DNA of 34,701 nt from the NCBI GenBank assembly GCA_029778105.1, contig JAKOQZ010000102.1, forward strand, positions 1 to 34,701, read 5' to 3'. This DNA is from Pseudomonadota bacterium. GTDB taxonomy: Bacteria; Pseudomonadota; Alphaproteobacteria; Micropepsales; Micropepsaceae. A program made the translations under genes and the position numbers. Below are positions 1,570-33,632 of this stretch, piece after piece (position 1 is the stretch's first letter; each line of letters opens with the position of its first letter). The notes under the pieces were generated by a model. The model saw only the letters and a program-made list of their open reading frames with translations, had not been told where the DNA came from and did no database searches.

Positions 1570-2409
1570 ATGCTGAAATCCGGTCTTGCCGCCGCCGCCT
1601 TCGCCCTCGCTCTGGGGGGCGCGTTCGCCGCCCGGGCGGATATTTTCGAATCCGCCAACGCGCCGGGCATGTGCATCAACGCCTCCAGCGGCGGCGTTTC
1701 GATCCTGCCCTGCGACGGCGGCCCCAACCAGGATTTCGCCACCAAGTCGATCGGCGGCGGCCGCATCATCGTGGCGGGCGTGCGCTGCCTCCAGATGGCG
1801 GGCGAGAACAACATGCCCAACCTCGTGCAGTGGTCGCCTTCGGCCTGCACCAAGTTCAGTTTCGGCAATAACGGCCCCGTCTCGGGCGATGGCCTGTGCC
1901 TCGACGTCAAGGGCGGCGGCAAAAAGACCGGCACCAAGGTCATCGGCTGGCGCTGCAACGGCCAGACCAACCAGCGCTGGCTGCGCACCGGAACGGGCAA
2001 GACCGTGGCCGATAATGGCGACGATCTGATGGCCAACGCGACCCAGGGACGCCTGTCGGCCAATCATGCGCCGGATATGTGCCTCTCGGTCGCCGGCAGC
2101 CGCGTCGAGCTGCGCCCCTGCGGTTCGGCGACCAAGTTCAAGCTGTCGGTGGGCGTGCCCGCGACGCCGATCATGGCCCCCGGCAACAAGTGTCTCGACG
2201 GCCAGGGCTCGCAGGGCGAACAGGTGCGGGTCGTCACCTGCCAGGGCGGCCTCGCCTCGGCCCAGTGGACGTTCACCACCAACGGGCTGCTGCGCTCGGC
2301 CAACGGGCTCTGCGCCGACGTCGACGGCGCCAAGCGGCAAGCCGGCACGCCGGTGATTTTCTTCAAATGCTCGGGCAATCCGAACCAACGCTTTACGCTG
2401 ACGCCCTGA
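1570..2409 (+). CDS. Secreted ricin-type beta-trefoil lectin-like protein (paralog 1)
   Basis: Predicted exported carbohydrate-binding protein of 279 residues. The start ATG at 1570 is chosen because it begins a clean signal peptide (MLKSGLAAAAFALALGG, cleavage probably after ARA near residue 23); the same frame stays open upstream to 811 but overlaps fabD antisense. The mature part is two beta-trefoil (ricin B) units. Signs are repeated GMC/LCLDV/LCADVDGA segments, regularly spaced cysteines, and NQRW and NQRF forms of the QxW motif near the end of each unit. No catalytic domain is present. It resembles the next two genes closely, so the three arose by tandem duplication. The sugar ligand is unknown; an enzyme-inhibitor or adhesin role is also possible. 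Confidence 0.85.
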   Translation: MLKSGLAAAAFALALGGAFAARADIFESANAPGMCINASSGGVSILPCDGGPNQDFATKSIGGGRIIVAGVRCLQMAGENNMPNLVQWSPSACTKFSFGNNGPVSGDGLCLDVKGGGKKTGTKVIGWRCNGQTNQRWLRTGTGKTVADNGDDLMANATQGRLSANHAPDMCLSVAGSRVELRPCGSATKFKLSVGVPATPIMAPGNKCLDGQGSQGEQVRVVTCQGGLASAQWTFTTNGLLRSANGLCADVDGAKRQAGTPVIFFKCSGNPNQRFTLTP

Positions 2410-2473
2410 TCGACTTTCATCTCCGGTTCAGGCGGGGTGCGTGAGACAAACAGGAGCGCACCGCGCCGCAAGA

Positions 2474-2492
2474 CCCGGGTGCGGAACCCGGG
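2474..2492. other. Short perfect hairpin between lectin genes 1 and 2
   Basis: CCCGGGT and ACCCGGG are separated by five bases. There is no following T-tract, so this is not a canonical terminator. It could attenuate transcription or stabilise mRNA between the first and second lectin genes. This is seen in the sequence only; the function is inferred. Confidence 0.3.
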
Positions 2493-2535
2493 GATTGCGC
2501 CAGCGTTCTGGGCGATGGGATTGGGAGACAGCCTG

Positions 2536-3387
2536 ATGAAACCGATGAAATCCATCCTTGCGGCGTTGGCCGCGCTGGCGGGGCTGGCGATGTTCGCGCC
2601 CTCCGCCTCTGCCGAAGCGCTGGAGCCCGGCAATGCCCGCGGCATGTGCCTCGACTTCGCGTCCGGGCGCGGCGTGCTCGCGCGCTGCACGGGCGACAAC
2701 CCTCAGGACCTCGACATTCCCAATCGCGGCGCCGACTTCATCCGGGTCGGGCGCTATTGCGTCGCCGCCGCCAATCAGGGCGCGCAGCTTTACGCCACCA
2801 ATTGCCGCAACCGCGCCGAACAGTACTGGACCTACAGCCAGAACGGCACGCTGGTGAACGGCACGGGCCTCTGCGCCGATGTCGAGGGCGGCGCCCGCTA
2901 TGAAGGCGCGCGCGTCATCGCCTATAGCTGCTCGGGCAAGTCGAACCAGCGCTTCTTTGTCTGGCAGGGCGGCTACAATCCCGGCCCCGGCAATGGCGGC
3001 GGCTATCAGGTCCAGGTTCTGCTCTCGCCGACGCATGCGCCGGGCATGTGCCTGGACCGCGACAAGAGCTCCAATCAGATCATCCTGTTCGGCTGCCATG
3101 GCAAGTCGAACCAGGTCTTCACGCTGTCGCAGAGCGGCCGCACCGAGATCCGCGTGAACAATGGCTGCCTCACCGCGTCGGGCAGCAACCGCAGCCCGGT
3201 CTACGCCGCCAGCTGCAACGGCCGGCGCGAGCAGACCTGGGTGGTGCTGAACGACCGCACCATCCGCAATGATGCCTCCGGCCTCTGCCTCGATGTCGAT
3301 GGCGCGGGCCGCTACGACCGCACGCCGGTCATCACATTCAAGTGCTCGGGCAAGGCGAACCAGCGCTTCAACCTCTATTCCCGCTAA
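2536..3387 (+). CDS. Secreted ricin-type beta-trefoil lectin-like protein (paralog 2)
   Basis: 283-residue exported protein. The ATG at 2536 gives a standard signal peptide (MKPMKSILAALAALAGL, cleavage after ASA near residue 26); an in-frame start at 2437 would add a charged leader that hides the signal, so it was not used. Two beta-trefoil units follow. They carry GMCLDFA and GMCLDRD openings, NQRFF, NQVFTL, EQTWVV and NQRFNL versions of the QxW motif, and LCADVEGG / LCLDVDGAG repeats. A Gly/Pro/Asn-rich linker (NPGPGNGGGY) separates the two units. No enzyme domain is visible. The third paralog starts 4 bp after its stop, so the two are probably co-transcribed. Confidence 0.85.
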   Translation: MKPMKSILAALAALAGLAMFAPSASAEALEPGNARGMCLDFASGRGVLARCTGDNPQDLDIPNRGADFIRVGRYCVAAANQGAQLYATNCRNRAEQYWTYSQNGTLVNGTGLCADVEGGARYEGARVIAYSCSGKSNQRFFVWQGGYNPGPGNGGGYQVQVLLSPTHAPGMCLDRDKSSNQIILFGCHGKSNQVFTLSQSGRTEIRVNNGCLTASGSNRSPVYAASCNGRREQTWVVLNDRTIRNDASGLCLDVDGAGRYDRTPVITFKCSGKANQRFNLYSR

Positions 3388-3391
3388 GGGG

Positions 3392-4219
3392 ATGCGACGC
3401 TTGGCGACAGGGGCGGCCTGGGCCGCCCTCGCTCTTCTGGGCGCTGCCGCCGCCGAGCCGGCCTGGCGCGCCCTTCCGGAGATGACGCTTCAGTCCGCCG
3501 ACCTGCCGGGCATGTGCGTCACCGTGACCGGCGAGGGCATCGCCGAGAACCGCGCCTGCACCGGCGCGGCCAATCAGCTGGTCCGCGCGCCCGGCCCGGA
3601 TGGCGGCGTGCTGCGCTATGGCGATCTGTGCATGTCGGCGCCGGATGAGGGCAATTACCCCGAACTGCGCGCCGTGCCCTGCGGCGCGGGCGGCGACCAC
3701 TACTGGATCGTCGATCACAAGGGCCGCCTCGCCAACAATGCCGGGCGCTGCCTCCAGGTGCTGGGCGGTGGGTCGCGCGAGGGCGAGCGGGTCTTCGGCG
3801 CGCGGTGCCTGGAAGACGATCCCTCGCCCGCCGTGTTTCGCTTTGTGCCCTCCGCCGAAATCTGGGACTCGCGCACCGGCGCGGCCATTCTGTCCGGCAA
3901 GGCCTGCCTCGCCTGGCAGGAAGCGGGCAATTTCTTCAGGACCGACGACTGCGCGGCCGCGCCCCACGCGGCGTTCTCCTATGCGGTGAACCGGCCCGGA
4001 CAGATCCGCGCCCGCTCGTCATGCCTCAGGGCCGCCATGAACGACGCGCCGCTCAGTCTCGGCGAATGCCACGACGCGCCCGACCAGATGTGGACCATCG
4101 CGAACGGCCAGCTGATGAATGCCGACGGGCGCTGCGCGCTTCCCGATGCCGATGGCGTCCTGCGCGCAGGCGTCTGCCCCGCCCGCTCCGGCGATTTCGC
4201 GTTTCCGGCGACGCCCTGA
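3392..4219 (+). CDS. Secreted ricin-type beta-trefoil lectin-like protein (paralog 3, divergent)
   Basis: 275-residue exported protein starting at the ATG at 3392, right behind AAGGGG at the end of paralog 2. The signal peptide is MRRLATGAAWAALALLGAAA with cleavage near residue 21. Two trefoil-like halves can be traced through GMCVTVTGEG, RCLQVLGGGSREGERV, SCLRAAM and DQMWTIANGQL. The QxW motifs are more degenerate than in the two upstream copies (for example HYWIVD and DQMW), so binding may be altered or lost in some repeats. Its end is 68 bp before the esterase gene. It belongs with the lectin array, but is the most diverged member. Confidence 0.78.
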   Translation: MRRLATGAAWAALALLGAAAAEPAWRALPEMTLQSADLPGMCVTVTGEGIAENRACTGAANQLVRAPGPDGGVLRYGDLCMSAPDEGNYPELRAVPCGAGGDHYWIVDHKGRLANNAGRCLQVLGGGSREGERVFGARCLEDDPSPAVFRFVPSAEIWDSRTGAAILSGKACLAWQEAGNFFRTDDCAAAPHAAFSYAVNRPGQIRARSSCLRAAMNDAPLSLGECHDAPDQMWTIANGQLMNADGRCALPDADGVLRAGVCPARSGDFAFPATP

Positions 4220-30471: not shown

Positions 30472-31169
30472 CTAGCCCGGGGAGGCGGATTTCAGGAGGG
30501 CGAGTTCGGCGCGGAGGGTATCGCGTTCGGCCTCGGCGGCGTGGAGGCGTTGCCAGAGGGGAGCGGCGACCCGGGCCACCTCGGCTTGCGTGAAGCGCGG
30601 GGTGATGTGCTGGGGGCAGTTCCAGTCAAATGCCCAGGTCAATTAGTGGCGCATCGCCTTATCGAAAAACCGGCGTCCACTTTTTCGGGCGATGCGCGGC
30701 TGAATCACGATGCCGCGCTCGACGCGGGCGGCGTAGGCGGCGTCTTCCAGGCGGGTGAGGGTTTCGGGGTCGTCGGCCTGGCGGGCGTGGCCGATGAGTT
30801 TCAGCCGGCGCTGGTGCGGGATAATTCCCAAGAGGATCAGCGAGACGCGGTCGTTCCCGTTCAGGTTGCCGACGCTGACATATTGGCGGGCCCAAGGAAA
30901 TCGGCGAAGCCGAGCGTGCGGTCGTCCAGACATTTGAGGAACCCCGGCGGGGCCCAAGATGCTGGACATAGGGCCAGCCGGTTTCCGAGACGCTGGGTAG
31001 ACAAGAAACTGTCGCGCGCGGCGATGAAGGCGCGCTCGGCCTCGCCCAGCGTATCGCGCGGATCGGCCTGAGGCGCATCCAACCGCTCATAGGCCCGGCG
31101 CGAACCCTCAGCCTCCTGCACCGCCCGCACGGCCGGGGTGAACATGAGCTGGGAGAAGCGGCGGGTCAT
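30472..31169 (-). pseudogene. Broken PPOX-family (pyridoxamine 5'-phosphate oxidase-like) flavoprotein gene
   Basis: A once ~200-residue FMN-binding protein can be rebuilt only across several frames. It starts MTRRFSQLMFTPAVRAVQEA (ATG 31169; an earlier ATG at 31196 is possible) and runs through AERAFIAARDSFL. It then needs a frame change near 31000 to read ETGWPYVQHLG, another near 30950 for PPGFLKCLDDRTLGFADF, and a third near 30890 for RQYVSVGNLNGNDRVS and the rest. The third frame reaches ARVERGIVI, then runs into a palindromic element that brings a TAA stop at 30643-30645. The same frame resumes as AFDWNCPQHITPRFTQAEVARV and ends at 30472. Short sequencing errors could make one or two frameshifts, but not the inserted element. 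Family assignment rests on FLKCLDD-, NCPQHITPRF-type motifs. Confidence 0.82.
30649..30697. repeat. Palindromic element inserted in the PPOX pseudogene
   Basis: GCGCATCGCC (30649-30658) pairs with GGCGATGCGC (30688-30697). Inside, CGAAAAA (30663-30669) pairs with TTTTTCG (30681-30687) around an 11-base loop. The result is a 49-bp stem-loop with a 4-base bulge. The minus strand reads GAAAAAGTGG and CCGGTTTTTCG, a look shared with small palindromic elements scattered in alphaproteobacterial genomes. No second copy was seen in this window. Confidence 0.7.
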
Positions 31170-31255
31170 GGTTGGGGGATCGATTTTTGTCGCCAATAGA
31201 ATTTGTGGTGACGGACATCGGCGTTAGTCAGCCGCAACCGGCAAATGTCACCGTG

Positions 31256-31302
31256 CGTGTGCAATACCCCTATGTCCTTAGGACATAGGGGTATTGCACA
31301 CG
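31256..31302. promoter_or_regulatory. 47-bp perfect palindrome 1 (putative AbiEi operator)
   Basis: Left arm 31256-31278 (CGTGTGCAATACCCC, then TATGTCCT), one central T (31279), right arm 31280-31302. The 23-bp arms are exact complements. The core GTCCT-T-AGGAC recurs in the second palindrome. AbiEi antitoxins are known to repress their own operon by binding inverted repeats in the promoter, so this is the likely distal operator. Confidence 0.8.
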
Positions 31303-31327
31303 TTCGTCAACCCCGCCCAGAAAATAC

Positions 31328-31357
31328 TTGACATTGGCATGATACGAGGTGCATACG
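31328..31357 (+). promoter_or_regulatory. Candidate promoter of the AbiE-like operon
   Basis: A perfect TTGACA (31328-31333) lies between the two palindromes. The -10 region would fall inside palindrome 2 (CATACG at 31352-31357, 18-bp spacing, poor match). If real, binding to palindrome 2 would occlude it directly. Confidence 0.4.
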
Positions 31358-31385
31358 TCCTAAGGACGTATGCACCTCGTATCAT
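31339..31385. promoter_or_regulatory. 47-bp perfect palindrome 2 (putative AbiEi operator)
   Basis: Left arm 31339-31361 (ATGATACGAGGTGCATACG, then TCCT), central A (31362), right arm 31363-31385. The 23-bp arms are exact complements. It ends 3 bp before the AbiEi start codon, so the mRNA would be nearly leaderless or begin with half of a hairpin. It shares only the GTCCT-N-AGGAC core and short neighbouring similarity with palindrome 1. Confidence 0.8.
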
Positions 31386-31388
31386 ATC

Positions 31389-32288
31389 ATGCTATTCTCT
31401 GAAGCTTTCCAATTAATGGTAGAGCGACTGCGGAAGCCAGTCACAACCGAATATGAATTGTTCCAGATTGGCTGGAGATTAGCTTACAGCGGAAAATTTG
31501 ACAACCTTCCAATGTCGCGGGTTCCGAAGACCTGGGACAAGGCGAGACTCAACTCAGCTATAAAGATTTTGCGCCGAAAGCGCGTAATTGTTGAAGATCA
31601 TGATTTTAAGTCCGGCGTTTGGCGAATAGTGCAAGCGACATCAGCAGGTACGGCTGAGGAAGTCTGTTGTTTGTCCGATCCATTCTGCTACGTTTCGCAT
31701 CTCTCAGCAATGCAGCGTTACGGGCTTACCAATAGATCTCCACATTCATTACATCTCACAACTCCAAGTCGCCCCATATGGAGCGGCCTTCGCGACGAAC
31801 AGTTTGAAAAACACTATGCTGACTATCCGTATCTCGATCGCTTAAAACTGTTACACTATTCGCCCAATGACATTGTTAGAGGACAACGGGTAATAATTCA
31901 CGTATCTTCCAGCCCTGCGGCCCCAATTCTCGATAGAACTACTAACGGGCGAATAGCTTCTATCGGGCGGACGTTCTTAGACATGATATCCGAGCCACAT
32001 TTATGTGGAGGAATGCCCCATGTTGTTGACGCTTGGACGAACCACGCCAACGCCTGGATCGACCAGATCATTCCTGAAATCGACAAATCATCACATAAGT
32101 TGACGAAAGTCCGCGCAGGCTACCTGATAAGCGAAAGACTCGGACTCTCAGACCATCGAGTGGAAGCTTGGAAAAACTTTTCGCAGAGAGGCGGATCACA
32201 GAAGCTTGACCCCGAAAAGCCGTATTCTAAACTTTTTTCGGAAACGTGGAAAATCTCTATAAACGTCCAAGATAGCGATGATGACTGA
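31389..32288 (+). CDS. Type IV toxin-antitoxin AbiEi family antitoxin
   Basis: 299 residues. The N-terminal region (EYELFQIGWRLAYSGKF, ARLNSAIKILRRKRVIV) is a winged-helix DNA-binding domain. The mid-part CCLSDPFCYVSHLSAMQRYGLTNRSPHSLHLTTPSR is the family hallmark. The C-terminal half, with the antitoxin function in the family, includes GRIASIGRTFLDMISEPHLCGGM and a helical end. The AbiEi role is twofold: operon repressor and neutraliser of the partner. The gene overlaps the toxin gene by 11 bp. The DNA is much more AT-rich than the surrounding chromosome, with ATA, TTA and AGA codons, so it was probably acquired. No Shine-Dalgarno is visible before the ATG. Confidence 0.88.
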   Translation: MLFSEAFQLMVERLRKPVTTEYELFQIGWRLAYSGKFDNLPMSRVPKTWDKARLNSAIKILRRKRVIVEDHDFKSGVWRIVQATSAGTAEEVCCLSDPFCYVSHLSAMQRYGLTNRSPHSLHLTTPSRPIWSGLRDEQFEKHYADYPYLDRLKLLHYSPNDIVRGQRVIIHVSSSPAAPILDRTTNGRIASIGRTFLDMISEPHLCGGMPHVVDAWTNHANAWIDQIIPEIDKSSHKLTKVRAGYLISERLGLSDHRVEAWKNFSQRGGSQKLDPEKPYSKLFSETWKISINVQDSDDD

Positions 32289-33183
32289 CATCGAACCACC
32301 CGACGCCCCTGAATATCAAGAAGCCATTGAAGTCGATATTGCCACTTGGGTAGCCTCGGCGGCCGCGAACCCTACCCTGCATAGAGACCGACAAGTTATC
32401 GAGATTTTTCTTTCGGCCGTAGGTCTCTCTCCGTCCCTAAACGGAAACTTGTACCTTAAAGGTGGCACGCTGATGTCACTTGCATTCCAAAGCCCGCGCG
32501 CGACATCTGACATTGATTTTACGTCCACACACGACCCTGATCATTTCGTCGAACAAGAACTTGCAATATTGAATTCTTCATTATCGACCGCAGCAATTTC
32601 AGCGGGTTATCCCGATCTTGTTTGCAAAGTTCAAGGATTTACTAAACGTCCCAAGCCATCAATGTTTGGGGCCGCAAATTTTCCGGCAATACAGCTCAGA
32701 ATTGCCCACGCTCGCCGAGGGACGCAAGAAGAAGATAAGCTTCATAAAGGTCAAGCACCGAGAGTTCTCGACGTCGATATAAGCTTCCGAGATCACGTCT
32801 ACGAAGCGTCCGAAGTCATACTTCATAATGCAAACATTACTATCTCATCTTTCTCTATTAATGAACTCATTGCGGAAAAACTAAGGGCTTTACTGCAGCA
32901 AAAGATCCGAAGAAGAAATAGACGCCAAGATGTCTATGACATTTCCTTGCTTTTATCTTCAAACACCTTCACAGATGACGATAAATCTTCAATACATTCG
33001 ATATTTGTTAAGAAATGTCGCAGCCGAAGTATATTTCCAGATATCAATTCTCTTGCCGATACCGAGGTCTATGCGTTGGCGAAGACTGAATGGAATACGC
33101 TGAAACTTGAACTGGGAGATCTGCCTGATTTCGACACCAGCTTCGCCGCGATCCGAGAGTTCTACGAACAATTGCCTTGGTAA
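32278..33183 (+). CDS. AbiEii-family nucleotidyltransferase toxin
   Basis: 301 residues. The nucleotidyltransferase core is LYLKGGTLMSLAFQSPRATSDIDFTS (GG-T, then two Asp in DID), then DVDISFRDHVYEAS with a possible third Asp. Later come INELIAEKLRALLQQ and RRRNRRQDVYDISLLL, the other AbiEii/DUF1814 motifs. The family toxin is a GTP-binding NTase that slows growth and gives abortive-infection resistance to phage. ATG at 32278 or at 32281 (ATGATG) are both possible. It is co-transcribed with the antitoxin gene, whose stop lies inside this gene. Same AT-rich composition as its partner. The acceptor is unknown. Confidence 0.88.
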   Translation: MMTDIEPPDAPEYQEAIEVDIATWVASAAANPTLHRDRQVIEIFLSAVGLSPSLNGNLYLKGGTLMSLAFQSPRATSDIDFTSTHDPDHFVEQELAILNSSLSTAAISAGYPDLVCKVQGFTKRPKPSMFGAANFPAIQLRIAHARRGTQEEDKLHKGQAPRVLDVDISFRDHVYEASEVILHNANITISSFSINELIAEKLRALLQQKIRRRNRRQDVYDISLLLSSNTFTDDDKSSIHSIFVKKCRSRSIFPDINSLADTEVYALAKTEWNTLKLELGDLPDFDTSFAAIREFYEQLPW

Positions 33184-33205: not shown

Positions 33206-33565
33206 TCACCCCCTCAACACCTTCTCCATCGGCCTGCCCTTCGCGAGTTCGTCCACGAGTTTGCCGAGGATGCGGATCTCGCGCATGAGGGGCACGTCGA
33301 TGTTTTCGATGCGGACGCCGCAGATGACGCCCGTCACCTGATCGCGGGCGGGGTTCAGCTTGGGGGCCTTGTCAAAGAACTCGGCGAAGGAGAGGCCCTT
33401 GGTCAGCGCGGCCTGGAGCGATTTCTCGGTGTGGCCGGTGAGCCAGCGGAGGACCTGATCGAGCTCGGCCCTGGTGCGGCCCTTCTTTTCCGACTTGGTC
33501 TGATAGGCGGGGTAAACCTTGGCCACGGGCATGGCGAAGATGCGGTGGTTGGGGTCGGTTTTCAT
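33206..33565 (-). CDS. DUF2200 family protein
   Basis: 119-residue protein matching the DUF2200 family in length and motifs: HRIFAMPVAKVYPAYQTKSEKKGRTRAELDQVLRWLTGH near the N-terminus and VTGVICGVRIENIDVPLMREIRILGKLVDELAKGRPMEKVLRG at the end. The YP.Y..K...KGR and I.G.RVE..E.P... patterns are diagnostic. Start ATG at 33565; the open frame continues to 33721 through repeat DNA. No function is known. It lies 22 bp after the toxin gene on the other strand, with no visible terminator between. Confidence 0.88.
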   Translation of the reverse strand: MKTDPNHRIFAMPVAKVYPAYQTKSEKKGRTRAELDQVLRWLTGHTEKSLQAALTKGLSFAEFFDKAPKLNPARDQVTGVICGVRIENIDVPLMREIRILGKLVDELAKGRPMEKVLRG

Positions 33566-33602
33566 CTGCGGGAGATTGGGGGAGAGGGGCCTTTTCCTGC
33601 AA

Positions 33603-33632
33603 GGCCCCCTTCCGGCCGTTGGCCACCTTCCC
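33603..33632. repeat. Dispersed intergenic repeat (copy 2, inverted)
   Basis: Reads GGCCCCCTTCCGGCCGTTGG then CCACCTTCCC, the reverse complement of the block at 6269-6297 with a single difference in the central part. It lies just upstream of DUF2200. Confidence 0.6.

Follow-up and report, generated by a model that had tools for sequence, protein, structure and literature searches.

The hallmarks of AbiE systems are a bacteriostatic toxicity that is neutralised by the antitoxin AbiEi, and the exclusion of phages. Operators have been characterised for two antitoxins of this kind. In S. agalactiae, AbiEi, a winged-helix autorepressor encoded in a bicistronic operon, binds two 23-bp inverted repeats that lie 3 bp apart over the abiE promoter and represses its own promoter (PMC3985639). 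There is a single pair, its longest exact match falls in the outer 11 bp, and 4 mismatches in 23 bp are tolerated (PMC3985639). In Mycobacterium tuberculosis, Rv2827c binds two pairs of 23-bp inverted repeats at the promoter of the AbiEi-type antitoxin operon Rv2827c-Rv2826c, with 13-bp gaps within the pairs and 4 bp between them (PMC7319586).

The locus considered here lies in a window of 34,701 nucleotides (the whole stretch of DNA that was analysed) from an alphaproteobacterium of the family Micropepsaceae. As in both described systems (PMC3985639, PMC7319586), inverted half-sites of about 23 bp overlap the predicted promoter of an abiEi gene. In contrast to S. agalactiae, there are two pairs, each with a 1-bp centre and exact arms, and it is the inner 8 bp that are conserved. 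In contrast to Rv2827c-Rv2826c, the half-sites of a pair are separated by one base, and 83-152 bp lie between palindrome centres in operators of the type described here.

Twin palindromes upstream of an abiE operon

The first palindrome, P1, occupies positions 31256-31302 (arms 31256-31278 and 31280-31302, centre T at 31279) and the second, P2, positions 31339-31385 (arms 31339-31361 and 31363-31385, centre A at 31362). All four arms are 23 bp long and complementarity within each palindrome is 100%, exactly as a sequence-only reading had described them. A perfect 23-bp arm with a 1-nt centre is expected by chance with p of about 4^-23 per position; the palindromes are real and far beyond chance. 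Both contain GTCCT-N-AGGAC, the common core noted in that reading. The core conserved among relatives extends over TATGTCCTTAGGACATA in P1 (31271-31287), which is the predicted AbiEi recognition sequence, and over TACGTCCTAAGGACGTA in P2 (31354-31370). A search of the 3.17-Mb genome for GTCCTNAGGAC found two sites only, P1 and P2, and the list for the rest of the window holds no further palindrome with a score of at least 13 and a spacer of at most 6. The length and exactness of the arms had been called unusual. For a genome they are, but within the AbiEi subfamily at hand they are the rule.

P2 ends 3 bp short of the ATG of abiEi at 31389, in agreement with the sequence-only reading. The gene abiEi (31389-32288, plus strand, 299 aa) is recognised by PADLOC (E=1.2e-99). 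Its score against Pfam AbiEi_1 is under the cut-off, which marks it as a divergent member. A PDB sequence search with the AbiEi profile gave no match, while the AlphaFold model (pLDDT 91.8) matches Rv2827c (1zel), its closest PDB fold, and S. agalactiae AbiEi (6y8q), the only PDB hits at E<=0.001. PADLOC and these model matches agree with the AbiEi antitoxin architecture, an N-terminal winged helix followed by the AbiEi C-terminal domain. The toxin gene abiEii (32278-33183, plus strand, 301 aa) encodes a DUF1814 nucleotidyltransferase recognised by Pfam AbiEii (E=1.4e-28; 100.9 bits against a cut-off of 22.5) and PADLOC (E=5e-98), with a readable GG...DID motif. The two genes lie on the same strand, antitoxin first, with an 11-nt overlap, which is a bicistronic operon layout. 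The module, at first called AbiE-like, is thus an AbiE type IV toxin-antitoxin operon by PADLOC, Pfam and fold matches alike.

The operon looks horizontally acquired. It lies in an island of 43-48% GC between flanks of mostly 64-72%, and there is no AbiEi relative in 95 other genomes of the order. A single-protein scan of a collection of genome contigs found none either, nor did the phage records contain any. Alphaproteobacterial plasmids carry AbiEi relatives at 46-48% identity, and gamma- and betaproteobacterial plasmids carry them at lower identity. An N-6 DNA methylase gene is found closely downstream of abiE on several Rhodobacterales plasmids (L008, L118, L119). Adjoining the island on the minus strand is a pyridoxamine-5'-phosphate-oxidase-like gene (30643-31196), split over two overlapping frames (31196-30861 and 30969-30643) and hence frameshifted in appearance. 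A DUF2200 gene (33206-33610, minus strand; Pfam E=1.8e-45) directly follows abiEii. Elsewhere in the window (1602-4219), the translations of three neighbouring plus-strand frames share similar ...GLCLDV...G...QRF-type repeats reminiscent of ricin-B-like lectins and, to judge by these translations, form a tandem family.

The predicted promoter elements fit the operator layout. The sequence-only reading had the palindromes bracket a TTGACA (31328-31333, plus strand). They do lie on both sides of this hexamer, the predicted -35 of the abiE promoter, but P2 also spans the -10 and start-site region that it would serve. The hexamer starts 34 bp upstream of the P2 centre, a spacing matched in relatives: 85 of 98 distinct P2 palindromes have a TTGACA-like hexamer whose first base is 27-38 bp upstream of the centre, most often at 33. 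Such spacing puts the -10 inside the left arm of P2 and the start of transcription near its centre, which in the commonest class is 25 bp from the start codon. The candidate -10 in the P2 left arm here (GCATACGTC, 31351-31359, plus strand) is a weak match; most relatives have TATATG or TATGTC. The earlier suggestion that the mRNA would start inside P2 agrees with this predicted start site, and the palindromes are placed like operators of an autorepressor. A possible divergent promoter overlaps P1, with TTGACG as its -35 (31305-31310, minus strand) and, 17 bp away, TATGTC as its putative -10 (31282-31287, minus strand). Of 75 distinct P1 palindromes, 33 have a -35-like hexamer at comparable spacing on the minus strand and 20 have one on the plus strand; among 98 P2 palindromes, 6 have one on the minus strand. 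From these elements we infer that transcription starts at both palindromes.

Palindromes and AbiEi genes in other bacteria

Related loci were gathered in two ways, by protein similarity and by an exact search for the core. The sequence-only reading had proposed searching AbiEi promoters for the core with long arms. Of the 108 loci that tblastn matched to AbiEi, a set that includes a few near-duplicates, 105 have long palindromes upstream. There are two in 83 and one in 22, and the three loci that have none are all partial or distant matches. The arms usually measure 16-28 bp around one centre base, and the relatives are spread over several groups of bacteria, so the tie to AbiEi genes is borne out. 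The core-selected set gives the same picture: most of the 80 GTDB loci adjoin AbiEi, and core matches without AbiEi have arms of just 8-9 bp, except for two of 13 and 16. In this genome collection the palindromes do not recur as long-armed repeats dispersed independently of AbiEi, an outcome the sequence-only reading had named as one to look for. On viral contigs there are 4 core matches, none linked to AbiEi; two of these contigs carry perfect palindromes with the same core and no AbiEi match, with 19-bp arms in L100 (centre 5490) and 18-bp arms in L101 (centre 231). As a background control, 643 kb of flanking DNA held three perfect palindromes with arms of at least 16 and spacers of at most 3, one of which bears the AbiE core. 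On a Terriglobia contig (L054), core-bearing palindromes lie both upstream of abiEi (centre 1466) and downstream of abiEii (centre 3419, 25-bp arms), bracketing the operon.

We aligned 148 distinct palindromes outward from their centres. Symmetry is 98.6-100% at each of positions 1-18 and falls to background by 23-24. Since detection required a score of 13, the symmetry seen at the innermost positions depends in part on detection, and positions 14-18 are free of this dependence; over positions 9-18 symmetry is about 99.6%. No G.T pair occurs at positions 1-18 in any of the 148. The inner 8 bp, TRYGTCCT-N-AGGACRYA, are the sole conserved part of the arms: values above 0.9 bit of information are confined to positions 1-8, and those at 9-20 lie in the range 0.07-0.43 bit. 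Within a promoter, P1 and P2 are 35% identical at positions 9-18, and for this reason we rejected a reading of the outer arms by sequence.

Exact abutting symmetry is typical of the subfamily studied here and not of AbiE generally. In the canonical AbiEi_4 subfamily, about 7 of 30 loci have long inverted repeats near the promoter, with spacers mostly of 4-12 bp and often 1-3 mismatches. Other AbiEi subfamilies with different cores show a 44-bp perfect palindrome with an even centre (L108:2406-2449), twin palindromes of 40 and 44 bp with 1-2 mismatches (L109:1227-1345) and 20-bp arms with a 10-bp spacer (L117:1347-1396). Of these, L108 and L109 are intermediate cases.

Concerted change of the two arms

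To follow the arms over time, we sorted locus pairs into bins by how far the fourfold-degenerate sites of their abiEi genes diverge, and scored arm positions 9-20. At mean fourfold divergence of 0.019, 0.095, 0.22 and 0.37, symmetric double changes amount to 0.024, 0.12, 0.24 and 0.43 and one-sided changes to 0, 0, 0 and 0.0035, in bins whose pairs overlap; changes in the core are near 0 throughout. In 24 non-overlapping pairs (mean divergence 0.11), 35 symmetric and 0 one-sided changes were found in 474 arm positions. Double substitutions in the outer arms thus build up at roughly the synonymous rate, and both arms change together without one-sided states, as in repeats homogenised by template switching.

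If the two arms mutated independently and asymmetric states were selected against, the second mutation would have to arise in a rare intermediate, and such a process cannot reach the neutral rate. Double changes at this rate without intermediates require either coupled mutation or fast conversion. The exact symmetry had originally been taken as a sign of selection on symmetry, an interpretation these rates do not sustain. The best reading of the exactness is homogenisation of the arms through a hairpin, by template switching or an equivalent conversion.

Positions 14-18 of P2 change at 0.031, compared with 0.27 in P1, and the P2 changes are still symmetric. Such slow symmetric change is expected if constraint on one arm holds its partner. 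In some members the right arm of P2 has a Shine-Dalgarno-like sequence at these positions, which is a suggestive cause of the slow change; among the 80 P2-linked loci that have a start codon at the anchor, only 28 show such a 4-mer.

The centre base is hypervariable, differing in 18 of 40 independent close comparisons. Its composition is A/T in 151 of 183, a preference that accounts in part for the bias towards complementary changes, which is itself modest among independent pairs (9 of 18). Complementary changes dominate over all close pairs (10 of 12 in the closest bin), a count to which we give less weight since these pairs are non-independent and share the A/T bias of the centre. Inversion of the centre base is likely. 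In a family of 4.7-kb plasmids from E. coli, Klebsiella and Salmonella, T is the usual base at the P2 centre; CP116083, CP082509 and O15_8X have A there, and strain G5 has C. These 4 records differ at the P2 centre, compared with about 5 records over the other 119 query positions.

Operators, hairpins and what keeps the arms alike

How could these features be combined? We consider it probable that P1 and P2 are operators of AbiEi as an autorepressor, with outer arms kept symmetric by conversion through a hairpin. The operator part is supported by homology: the AbiEi fold matches two antitoxins that bind 23-bp inverted repeats at characterised operators, which suggests that P1 and P2 are AbiEi operators with abutting half-sites. 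By analogy with these antitoxins, AbiEi would bind and repress at both palindromes. Each would consist of two abutting, oppositely oriented half-sites of about 22 bp around one base, and the winged-helix domain of AbiEi would recognise the 8 conserved bp at the inner end of each. Bound at P2, AbiEi would mask the -10 box together with the start site, and the operon would be shut off. P1 would be a second operator, often with promoter elements of its own that point more often away from abiE.

Abutting half-sites would allow the DNA to form a tight hairpin whose stem measures about 22 bp. Within this hairpin replication, which bound repressor may slow, would switch template and recopy one arm from its partner. 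Any outer-arm mutation would soon be erased or imposed on the partner arm, the centre base would turn over fast, and the outer arms could drift nearly neutrally yet stay exactly symmetric. Template switching between the arms of inverted repeats has been reported to homogenise the arms and invert spacers (PMC8604942) and to maintain stems (PMC8794818). Repeats homogenised in this way (PMC8604942, PMC8794818, quasipalindrome mutagenesis) resemble ours in their homogenised arms, simultaneous changes in both arms and altered, perhaps inverted, spacers. They are known from mutation hotspots, yeast strains and RNA genes, whereas here we see steady concerted evolution of one operator type over several bacterial phyla. 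That template switching is the particular route is what we infer; the same marks are expected from an equivalent alternative, in which a cruciform is extruded and mismatch repair then acts on it. One study reports that DNA-protein crosslinks stimulate template switching in E. coli (PMC6357072), and it is speculation, by analogy, that a bound repressor might do so too. In L010 and L011 the missing palindrome resembles a deletion, which is consistent with hairpin instability.

Several other suggestions can be made. AbiEi might need identical 22-bp half-sites, with asymmetric variants purged and later compensated by a second mutation. Perfect symmetry over 148 distinct palindromes, a near-constant arm length and the 23-bp half-sites of AbiEi operators elsewhere would all suit such selection, which we nevertheless consider unlikely: independent compensation would be far slower than the near-synonymous double changes seen without one-sided states, one protein cannot read by sequence outer arms that are only 35% alike between P1 and P2, and the S. 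agalactiae operator tolerates its mismatches. Arm length near 22 bp across deep divergence does not obviously follow from conversion alone, and there may be some selection on length or symmetry as well. It is quite improbable that the selected regulatory state is DNA structure itself, an extruded cruciform or hairpin responding, for instance, to supercoiling. The near-constant stem with its sharp edges, the concerted change and the apparent deletions in L010 and L011 all fit a hairpin, but a stem would tolerate some mismatches and neutral-rate double change would still demand conversion.

It is more improbable still that the palindromes act in the abiE leader as RNA hairpins with control over translation or stability. 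If a transcript spanned all of P2, it could fold back into a perfect 22-bp stem or nearly so, but with the predicted start at the P2 centre the left arm lies upstream of the mRNA, and the G-U pairs expected under selection on RNA are absent at positions 1-18. On these grounds we rejected a 5'-UTR hairpin regulator, and RNA structure, which the sequence-only reading had allowed as a selected target, is unlikely to be one. Rfam yielded miRNA-like, sub-threshold matches to both palindromes and nothing else; we dismissed them as far below the gathering scores. We give hardly any weight to ordinary dispersed repeats or ends of mobile elements that adjoin abiE by chance. Chance alone would produce the 17-bp core pattern some tens of times in 257 Gb, and there are a few unlinked matches, but the presence of just two copies in the genome, the AbiEi linkage of most GTDB core matches, the mostly 8-9-bp arms of the others and the scarcity of perfect palindromes in flanking DNA refute this reading. 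We would also give only a small chance to an active use, in which AbiEi on perfectly symmetric DNA, or the extruded hairpin, would be a structural switch that responds, when a phage infects, to replication or supercoiling stress. Symmetry over about 22 bp would then be kept for the switch, and the repressor-bound operator might itself provoke the template switching that preserves it.

In outline, the palindromes are a variant of a known operator type shaped by concerted evolution, and what is unexpected about them is evolutionary. Their exact symmetry appears to be written by conversion. With about 150 distinct sites, nearly neutral double changes and hardly any one-sided states, they form an unusually clean natural record of the homogenisation of inverted repeats. 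Neither exact symmetry nor covariation, taken alone, is therefore evidence that structure is under selection. Such comparison also gives a way to estimate how fast arms are converted in bacteria: a steady-state mismatch frequency of about 0.4% suggests a conversion rate some hundreds of times that of point mutation. Small E. coli plasmids carry related modules, on which direct tests are feasible. For the family itself, the comparison yields a definition of the operator in a widespread AbiE subfamily. It sets what the repressor probably reads, 8 bp in each half-site, apart from what copying probably writes, the outer arms.
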